Source: Methanolobus vulcani
GTDB taxonomy: Archaea; Halobacteriota; Methanosarcinia; Methanosarcinales; Methanosarcinaceae
Direction of reading: 5' to 3'
Assembly (NCBI RefSeq): GCF_900100715.1
Contig: NZ_FNCA01000002.1
Coordinates: 248,001-312,000 of the forward strand
DNA: 64,000 nt
Shown here: positions 21,408 to 23,664 of the stretch, in pieces
How positions within the stretch are numbered: the first letter of the stretch is position 1
Layout: every line of letters starts with the position of its first letter
The notes under the pieces: model-generated
The model's database searches: none
Seen by the model: only the letters and a program-made list of their open reading frames with translations
Told to the model about the DNA's origin: nothing
Translations under genes and position numbers: made by a program

Positions 21408-21869
21408 ATGACTGAAAGGCCAAGTATAGATGAGTATTTTCTTGAGATAGCTACGGTTGTGGCCAAACGCTCCACTTGCTTGCGAAACCGGGTTGGAGCT
21501 GTGATTGCCAGGGATAAACGAATACTTTCTACAGGTTACAATGGCGCACCGAGAAATATGGATCATTGCCTTGATATAGGCTGTATCAGGCAGCAAAATA
21601 ATATTGCTTCAGGCACCCGTCATGAAAAGTGCCGTGCGGTACATGCCGAGCAGAACGCTATCATTCAGGCTGCCCTTCATGGTGTCAGCACAGATGGTGC
21701 CACACTTTATTGTACACATCAGCCATGTATACTCTGTGCAAAAATGATTATCAATTCCAATATTAAAAAGGTTGTTTACATCCAGCCTTATCCGGATGCA
21801 GACTCGCTTGTTTTCTTTGAGGAATCCGGTGTAGAGGTGGTAAACATCCCCATATCAGACTTTGCTTAA
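21408..21869 (+). CDS. dCMP/CMP deaminase family protein
   Basis: 153 residues. The zinc-binding cytidine deaminase signature is complete: VHAEQNAIIQAA (ligand His and catalytic Glu) and HQPCILCAKMI (two Cys ligands); GYNGAPRNMDHC is typical of dCMP deaminase. It converts dCMP to dUMP, the precursor for dTMP synthesis. The ATG has a TATA box 22-32 bases upstream and no ribosome site, suggesting a leaderless message. It overlaps the 3' end of cofE by 15 bases, tail to tail. Confidence 0.9.
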   Translation: MTERPSIDEYFLEIATVVAKRSTCLRNRVGAVIARDKRILSTGYNGAPRNMDHCLDIGCIRQQNNIASGTRHEKCRAVHAEQNAIIQAALHGVSTDGATLYCTHQPCILCAKMIINSNIKKVVYIQPYPDADSLVFFEESGVEVVNIPISDFA

Positions 21870-22607
21870 ACTGCGAAGTCCTTTTTTAATTATATCCTCG
21901 CGGTCACTGCGGTACATTTCCTGAATGGATGCCTCTTCTGCCCTTAGTTCCAGTCCTCTTATTATCACTACAGGATATCCGCCGTCACCTTCTCCCATGA
22001 GCAGGTTCGCAGCTCCTGCGATCTCATCTGCAATTGCCTCTTCTGTGATCTCGAGGGTGTTTCCAAACAGGTCTTTCTGTCCTTTCCAGTTCTTTACAGG
22101 ATGTATCTTGTAAACACCAATGGCAATTCCGGTCTGTCCTATCTTAAATGCTCTGCCGTTGGTATCTGTGAGTATTACGCTGATCTTCTTTCCAGTGATA
22201 TGCTCGATAGCCGAACCGATCTTAGACGTGCTTTCATCCGGACTTGATGGCAGGTCTGCAAGGTAGCCAATATCAACATTTGATTCATCGATCCCTGCTT
22301 TGATGCAGACGTGTCCGTTATGTGTTTCTACAAGAAAGATTGGATGATCGACCAATACTTCCTTACTGCGGTCAAGGACAGCCTGTATAAATCTTGCATC
22401 AAGGTCATGCTTTGAGGCAATAGCCAACGCCTTTTCTCCGGGGATGATGTCTTCAAGTCTGAACATCCTACCTTCTGCCTTGGCAACAATTGTAGAGGCT
22501 ATTACAACAATATCATTGTCTTCTATGGTGATGTTTTCACAGATGATCGATGCAATATCATCCCCTTCTTTTATGAGGGGAATATTTTCTACAGTATATA
22601 CCTGCAT
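21855..22607 (-). CDS. cofE: coenzyme F420-0:L-glutamate ligase
   Basis: 250 residues from ATG 22607 (a TTG two codons earlier is less likely). CofE adds L-glutamate residues to F420-0 with GTP, forming the polyglutamate tail of the hydride carrier F420 used in methanogenesis. Family features: IPLIKEGDDIA near the N-terminus, VVIASTIVAKAEGR, LTDTNGRAFKIGQTG, KGQKDLFGN and MGEGDGGYPVVIIRG. It has its own TATA-like element (TTAATTAATATAAG) about 65 bases upstream, so it is probably monocistronic. Its last 15 bases overlap the dCMP deaminase gene on the opposite strand. Confidence 0.95.
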   Translation of the reverse strand: MQVYTVENIPLIKEGDDIASIICENITIEDNDIVVIASTIVAKAEGRMFRLEDIIPGEKALAIASKHDLDARFIQAVLDRSKEVLVDHPIFLVETHNGHVCIKAGIDESNVDIGYLADLPSSPDESTSKIGSAIEHITGKKISVILTDTNGRAFKIGQTGIAIGVYKIHPVKNWKGQKDLFGNTLEITEEAIADEIAGAANLLMGEGDGGYPVVIIRGLELRAEEASIQEMYRSDREDIIKKGLRSLSKV

Positions 22608-22737
22608 TTTCAATTTGAGATTCTCCAGTATGTATGATTGGTTATGTAATCGTGAATAATACTCTTATATTAATTAACAATGCTATGTTAAATTCATACA
22701 AGTTTAATTTATATATGAATCATATAATATTCTACGA

Positions 22738-22872
22738 ATAGGGAATGGATTATTGAAGTAAGTGCAAGTTTCAATCTATAAAACTACCAACCAACCAACC
22801 AATCACACATTGAAGCAAATCTTAACTTTATGTACTTACTTCCCATTCTATTACGGCTTCAAACACTATTCA
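22738..22872 (+). ncRNA. candidate structured RNA: long hairpin with CCAACCAACCAACC loop
   Basis: A nested hairpin is visible in the spacer between cofE and the regulator gene. Stem A pairs 22743-22748 (GAATGG) with 22843-22848; stem B pairs 22755-22766 (GAAGTAAGTGCA) with 22831-22842 with one G-U pair; stem C pairs 22768-22775 (GTTTCAAT) with 22809-22816 with one G-U pair. The apical loop holds CCAACCAACCAACC (22787-22800). On the plus strand a TATA box (TTTATATA, 22708-22715) lies about 25 bases before the stem and a T5 run follows at about 22868-22872, so a ~130-nt small RNA is plausible. Read on the minus strand it would lie in the 3' region of the regulator mRNA and the loop would be GGTTGGTTGGTTGG. 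Neither transcript is proven. Confidence 0.5.
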
Positions 22873-23664
22873 TTCTATTTTTAAAAGTGGTACGGATTTG
22901 ATGAAATAGTGGTCAAAAAGTTCATTTCCCCAGTTAATAGCCTCCGGATCATCAGATATGAGATACCTTGGGTCGTATATTTCATTAAGGGTCAAGAGTC
23001 TCAACAAAATAAAATCTTCTGCCATTAGCACGGCGGAAACTTCCATTTTATGTGGGTATATGTAGAAATTGATATTAGGATATTGAATAAGTTCTTTAAG
23101 TTTTTGTTTTTCCTCTTCGATGAACTTTGTCAGGACTTCTTCAGTTATAACAAATCTGAATTCTGAGCCGTTCTTTGCATATTTAGTAAACAATGAAGAA
23201 TATTCTGAGTGGTAAAATGATGCTAAAGAACATATCTTTTGAGACTTGAGGCAATTTTTGATTGCGACCTTACTTAAATCCAGAGCTTCATGTAAATCTG
23301 GTTCTATAAGTGCACAATTTTTTAGTTCTCTCATTCGATAAAAAAGTTCAGGTGGTATGAAGTCTATATTGTGATTTAAAAGATAGTCCATCTGTTTTTC
23401 GAGGGTCTCAAGGGTACTGAGCAATGGTTCCAAGTCACTTACTATGAGTTTCCCATATTTAGAAAGAGCATATGTATCCTCTTTTTCATTTTTCGTTATC
23501 AAATGAGCTTCATCTAATATTTTCATTTGTGGAAGTAGCGCATTTCTGCTAACATCCAGTTTTTGCAAAATAGTGGACATTCTAACCGGTCCGTTTTTCA
23601 GGAGCAACAATACATCCTTTCGCTTTTCAGATCTGCTAATAGTTTCGATCAATGCTTTTCTCAT
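22870..23664 (-). CDS. winged-helix regulator of the FilR1/Msr type (DUF1724)
   Basis: 264 residues. The N-terminal ~85 residues form a winged helix (KRKDVLLLLKNGPVRMSTILQKLDVSRNALLPQMKIL, then EDTYALSKYGKLI); the remainder matches the DUF1724/FilR1 middle domain, with ALDLSKVAIKNC, EFRFVITEEVL and YPNINFYIYPHKMEVSAVLMAEDFILL. In methanogens this family includes methanogenic-pathway regulators (Msr proteins that control methyltransferase genes) and FilR-linked proteins. The target genes are unknown; no methyltransferase gene is adjacent. The long upstream spacer holds inverted and direct repeats that could be autoregulatory. Confidence 0.82.
   Translation of the reverse strand: MRKALIETISRSEKRKDVLLLLKNGPVRMSTILQKLDVSRNALLPQMKILDEAHLITKNEKEDTYALSKYGKLIVSDLEPLLSTLETLEKQMDYLLNHNIDFIPPELFYRMRELKNCALIEPDLHEALDLSKVAIKNCLKSQKICSLASFYHSEYSSLFTKYAKNGSEFRFVITEEVLTKFIEEEKQKLKELIQYPNINFYIYPHKMEVSAVLMAEDFILLRLLTLNEIYDPRYLISDDPEAINWGNELFDHYFIKSVPLLKIE

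Follow-up and report, generated by a model that had tools for sequence, protein, structure and literature searches.

A conserved CCAACC-loop hairpin beside cofE in Methanolobus, most likely a small regulatory RNA

Is the long hairpin with a C-rich loop that lies between cofE and a FilR1-type regulator gene in Methanolobus vulcani an RNA of its own, a part of a neighbouring transcript, or a palindrome acting as DNA? To our knowledge, archaeal sRNAs are numerous, and very few have known targets or belong to recognisable families. We examined the locus within a 64,000-nucleotide stretch of the M. vulcani genome (the window) and across related genomes. Our data give good support to a conserved RNA element in Methanolobus, which is most likely a small regulatory RNA and a member of a set of hairpins with CCAACC-repeat loops that spans the genus and has not been described before.

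Structure and conservation of the hairpin

A first-pass annotation of this DNA had described three helices of 6, 12 and 8 bp containing two G-U pairs, closed by a loop with repeated CC pairs, and had called for a folding check. Helices and loop are present as described, the loop repeat reading CCAACCAACCAACC (Table 1), and the plus strand folds far better than its shuffled versions, with a minimum free energy of -26.8 kcal/mol against a shuffled mean of -15.9 (z = -3.45; 0 of 200 shuffles as good). The loop 14-mer has an expected count of 0.02 in the window, the element sequence is single-copy in its own genome, and a scan of the window against Rfam release 15 gave no match.

Table 1 Positions of the hairpin, its parts and the flanking features in the window.
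Feature	Position	Strand	Basis or remark
P1, 6 bp	GAATGG 22743-22748 / CCATTC 22843-22848	+	pairing from fold
P2, 12 bp, one G-U	GAAGTAAGTGCA 22755-22766 / TGTACTTACTTC 22831-22842	+	compensatory changes in 10 orthologues
P3, 8 bp, one U-G	GTTTCAAT 22768-22775 / ATTGAAGC 22809-22816	+	one-sided changes only
Apical loop	22776-22808	+	holds motif CCAACCAACCAACC
Loop motif CCAACCAACCAACC, proposed pairing seed	22787-22800	+	core kept in orthologues; also in unrelated hairpins
Putative small RNA, structured core	22741-22853	+	extent of covariance model match
5' motif GGGAATGG, mostly GGGAGUGG among orthologues; ends in the 5' arm of P1	22741-22748	+	orthologue alignment
TATA-like box TTTATAT, between RNA and cofE	22708-22714	+	conserved stretch in 5 closest orthologues
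T-run, possible archaeal terminator	22878-22882	+	sequence
cofE, F420-0:gamma-glutamyl ligase	21855-22613	-	PF01996, E 1e-78; syntenic in each of the 10 species
FilR1-type HTH regulator, convergent neighbour	22870-23664	-	PF08350, E 9e-26

We built a covariance model from seven sequences and searched it in 27 Methanolobus genomes and 85 genomes from other genera of the family. Orthologues were found in 10 of the 27, each immediately upstream of cofE (E = 1e-6 to 1e-22), and the 85 other-genus genomes contain no significant match to the element. A pattern scan also matched contigs of M. vulcani B1d and M. bombayensis DSM 7082, both of them cultured. Across the 10 orthologues, 97.5% of P2 cells are paired and none of 500 shuffles reaches the P2 covariation score; controls in which the helix was slid give far lower values, down to about 40% paired. 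Compensatory double changes affect 7 of the 12 P2 pairs and 19 cells in an alignment that was fitted to the covariance model; seven sequences aligned with MAFFT alone already show five doubly compensated pairs, and RNAalifold recovers the same helices independently. P2 reads GAAGUAAGUAC in some sequences and GAGGCAAACAC or GAAGUGAGCAC in others, yet stays paired. P3 is paired in 94.7% of cells with one-sided changes only, and P1 appears in individual orthologue folds in a shifting register. The loop core CAACCAAC is present in all orthologues except that of G005, which has a shorter loop with CCAACC, and the number of repeats is variable. The element has the conserved RNA secondary structure asked of an archaeal sRNA. 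The first-pass annotation had named the lack of a transcript on either strand, together with a lack of stem conservation or covariation in relatives, as the outcome that would speak against it; for the stems we found the reverse, in 10 orthologues and seven covarying pairs.

A genus-wide class of CCAACC-loop hairpins

The motif CCAACCAACCA occurs 85 times in the 27 Methanolobus genomes versus 36 times in the 85 other genomes of the family. We counted the sites that lay inside a long perfect closing stem that beat shuffles at p ≤ 0.05. Such stems enclose 33 of the 58 intergenic CCAACCAACCA sites in Methanolobus, compared with a baseline of 22 of 347 random intergenic positions (6%), none of the 11 sites in Methanolobus ORFs (Fisher p = 3e-4 versus intergenic) and none of the 10 intergenic sites in other genera. 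The class stems occupy at least nine unrelated loci: A (the element studied here), B, C, E, H, K, M, P (L116/L039) and L035. Hairpin K is a second class member in this genome. Class loops contain 5% G, the 20 nt that follow the closing stems are 42.5% T, and a motif resembling the 5' motif of the element (GGGGAGTGGG) is found in loci K and H. Of 15 class loci compared with Rfam release 15, none scores above the gathering threshold. Its loop marks the set as a new class, probably a variation on known archaeal sRNAs.

In ten species, group B is flanked by hflX and a PHP gene; BRE/TATA-like sequences precede its stem, and the next gene has a promoter-like box of its own. A tree of the FilR1-type regulator R1, one of the predicted targets discussed below, separates the carriers: one clade has all A carriers and the other all B carriers except G013, which carries both A and B. 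Neither group A nor the tandem family M was found in the Methanolobus genome G006.

Groups K and H resemble longer structured RNAs of 250-350 nt (L027, on contig C16 of M. vulcani at about 31.4-31.8 kb; L133 and L110; L066 and L019 of G017). In K/H, further apical loops (GGGGAGUGGG and GGUGGUAC) precede the CCAACC hairpin, and K has an additional hairpin with the loop AACAACCAACUUUU after it. Tandem hairpins with a common GCCTGATAAG stem and TATA-like boxes ahead of them were seen at L108 (G023), L130 (G022), L212 (G024) and L214; the last of these, the copy in the M. vulcani genome (C15:216.3 kb), is without the CCAACC repeat. At L123 (G013:C32), a coding frame with repeats contains three CCAACCAACCA copies that have no relation to the hairpins. 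Different class loops also hold exact complements, GUACCACC of GGUGGUAC and CCCACUCC of GGAGUGGG; the complementary loops set B/C (L059, L068) and D against K/H/G (L027, L066, L067), and E/I (L040, L070) against A/H/K. Judged by this complementarity, pairing between sRNAs of the class is possible.

Candidate target leaders and proposed mechanism

In the M. vulcani genome, the 10-mer CAACCAACCA is found at five places: in A, in K and, as its complement, in the leaders of two FilR1-type regulators (R1 and R2) and at the ribosome-binding site of a TPR-protein gene. The predicted FilR1-type targets lie on contigs C16 near 54.5 kb and C12 near 102.5 kb, and the predicted TPR target on C8 near 443.9 kb (G000:C8:443888). 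The FilR1 family has 17 genes in this genome; that two of the three sites outside the hairpins fall on FilR1 leaders is unlikely by chance, on a rough argument and not a calibrated test. The first-pass annotation had suggested that the C-rich loop could pair with GGUUGG sites, and such sites do occur in conserved leaders. The complement of the loop is GGUUGG, not the GGAGG or GGUGG looked for in a test for an anti-Shine-Dalgarno sequence.

The R1 motif, GGUUGGUUGGAUAC, lies after a TATA-like box and ahead of the start, and persists, somewhat decayed, across the 15-species clade to which all A carriers belong. It is absent from the R1 leaders of the other Methanolobus clade, where the class hairpins B and C are kept, so that shared targets in this second clade would rest on the TPR gene. 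With the R1 leader, the A loop can form an uninterrupted 13-bp duplex, and its score there exceeds that on each of the leaders of the 50 window genes used as controls. The duplex energies behind these scores count loose extensions and should be taken as indicative only; with hairpin K, the R1 leader was equalled by one of the window leaders. The R2 motif is retained in three orthologues and absent from the leaders of R2's neighbours. At the TPR gene, GGAGUUGGUUGGUUGAAUG lies at the ribosome-binding site in M. vulcani, and GGAGUUGGUUGG or GGAGCUGGUUGG is kept among species of both clades with diverging upstream sequence. This site abuts GGAG, but the predicted pairing would involve the spacer. 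Across the genus, the TPR gene and its orthologues (L233-L259) share a G-rich spacer (GGAGUUGGUUGG...AUG) from the Shine-Dalgarno sequence to the start codon that is conserved to an unusual degree.

We looked for covariation between the RNA loop and the R1 leader motif and saw none. The RNA is present with a degenerate R1 motif in G016, G013 and G021, and five species of the A clade have no detectable RNA copy, some of which retain the R1 motif. GGUUGG repeats near starts could also be conserved for DNA- or protein-binding reasons.

Taken together, we estimate a probability of about 0.57 that the element is a trans-acting plus-strand sRNA whose loop pairs with mRNA leaders and alters their translation, a reading in which we infer transcription, pairing and the direction of regulation. 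An RNA of about 110-145 nt would start near 22736-22741, driven by its own TATA-like box, and its long closing stem would display a G-poor loop with CCAACC repeats. This loop would serve as the pairing seed for GGUUGG(UUGG) in mRNA leaders, and pairing would cover or flank the ribosome-binding site and so lower or otherwise alter translation. The predicted targets are the two FilR1-type regulators and the TPR protein. FilR1-type regulators are a family of methanogenesis regulators. If the model is true, post-transcriptional control would be tied to these regulators in methylotrophic methanogens, and a class that combines one loop seed and independent stems with conserved complementary leaders would offer a directly testable regulon.

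A wider version of the model would make the class a network, in which many unrelated sRNAs, some of them tandem, carry one interchangeable CCAACC seed on freely changing stems, jointly control the FilR1-type and TPR mRNAs, and pair with one another as sponges through their GGUGGUAC/GUACCACC and GGAGUGGG/CCCACUCC loops. We consider this version tentative, and its being correct in full rather unlikely.

The strongest competitor to mRNA pairing accepts the RNA as real and has the CCAACC repeats bind a protein, as a CsrB-like decoy or scaffold, with different RNAs converging on one protein site. In its favour, the repeat core stays constant across the class loci while the stems and the remaining loop sequence differ entirely, and the repeat number varies freely. 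Against it stand the complementary GGUUGG(UUGG) motifs in conserved leaders, and no candidate protein is known; we judge it unlikely, at odds of perhaps one in several.

Transcribed strand and known archaeal sRNAs

TTTATAT sits about 27-33 nt ahead of the 5' motif, and A/T-rich TATA-like boxes lie about 25-35 nt upstream of the element in the orthologues, shifted but similar in G013, G016 and G004 (TTAAATA, TTAAGTA). Read as plus strand, the orthologue helices contain 20 G-U pairs versus 4 A-C pairs, a bias that speaks for this strand as the RNA. Together with the boxes, it suggests that the plus strand is transcribed independently. No plus-strand gene begins closely downstream, which argues that the element is not a cis leader. 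The layout first proposed, a TATA box before the hairpin and a T-run ending it, stands in its promoter-like half; the T-run lies about 30 nt past the last helix, beyond 22872 and already inside the convergent regulator gene at its 3' end, and because it does not directly follow the hairpin, the 3' end of any transcript is uncertain.

That T-run, together with the FilR1-type regulator that flanks the element in 6 of the 10 carrier species, is what a cis-antisense RNA would have in its favour, its plus-strand transcription overlapping the convergent regulator mRNA at the 3' end. However, the element is retained in G008, G025, G013 and G005, where no FilR1 gene is adjacent, and it is the stem and loop that are conserved rather than an overlap, making this explanation improbable. 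The same four species argue that the element is not the regulator's 3' UTR, a candidate that we rejected. A minus-strand cis element, either that 3' UTR or an intercistronic structure before cofE, could draw on the shared minus-strand orientation of regulator, hairpin and cofE, and on the two-tetrad G-quadruplex sequence GGTTGGTTGGTTGG that the first-pass annotation had placed in the 3' region of the regulator mRNA. M. vulcani does have the four-tract sequence, but four CC tracts occur in only 3 of the 10 orthologues, so the G-quadruplex reading fails. The minus strand of the hairpin region shows no special folding relative to shuffles (z = -0.82), and with the G-U bias and the missing regulators we regard any such minus-strand element as very improbable. 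Equally improbable is a DNA-level palindrome, an operator or mobile-element end: the inverted repeats are long and GGTTGG also lies near FilR1 gene promoters, but the G-U pairs are strand-biased, the stem sequence varies freely while pairing persists, and no transposase lies at the locus. A mobile element was rejected on the single copy and its orthologous synteny.

Transcripts of this kind exist in the genus. The accessible part of a report on M. psychrophilus R15 describes 195 intergenic sRNAs, among them nine conserved cold-induced ones, and many intergenic sRNAs with BRE/TATA promoters proven (PMC5378194). That part of its text mentions no CCAACC loop or shared class; given the 195 intergenic sRNAs that it describes, our class may partly overlap transcripts already detected there and left unclassified.

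Two sRNAs of Methanosarcina mazei offer closer comparisons. sRNA154 is a methanogen sRNA with loops that pair with target mRNAs, as predicted here, one of its loops masking a ribosome-binding site (PMC5867862); it differs in being nitrogen-regulated, conserved in Methanosarcina and assigned other proposed targets, whereas our element has no model match outside Methanolobus. sRNA162 adjoins the gene of an ArsR-family regulator, whose mRNA it masks at the ribosome-binding site (PMC3510493). With sRNA162 and sRNA171 (PMC3510493) the element shares an intergenic position beside an ArsR-family regulator gene (here in part of the carrier species), stem loops combined with an unstructured pairing region, a regulator-mRNA ribosome-binding site as the target (here predicted), a paralogous copy and a confinement to close relatives. 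An ArsR/FilR1-type regulator gene adjoins the element in six of the ten species and is missing there in the others, and in genomes outside Methanolobus, Methanosarcina-sized ones included, the covariance model found no significant match that would indicate homology to the sRNA162 family. The pairing region of sRNA162/sRNA171 is a linker between stem loops, whereas here the predicted one is a CCAACC-repeat apical loop within a closing stem. If the pairing model holds, the element would work in the manner of sRNA162 and sRNA154, an analogy that does not imply homology.
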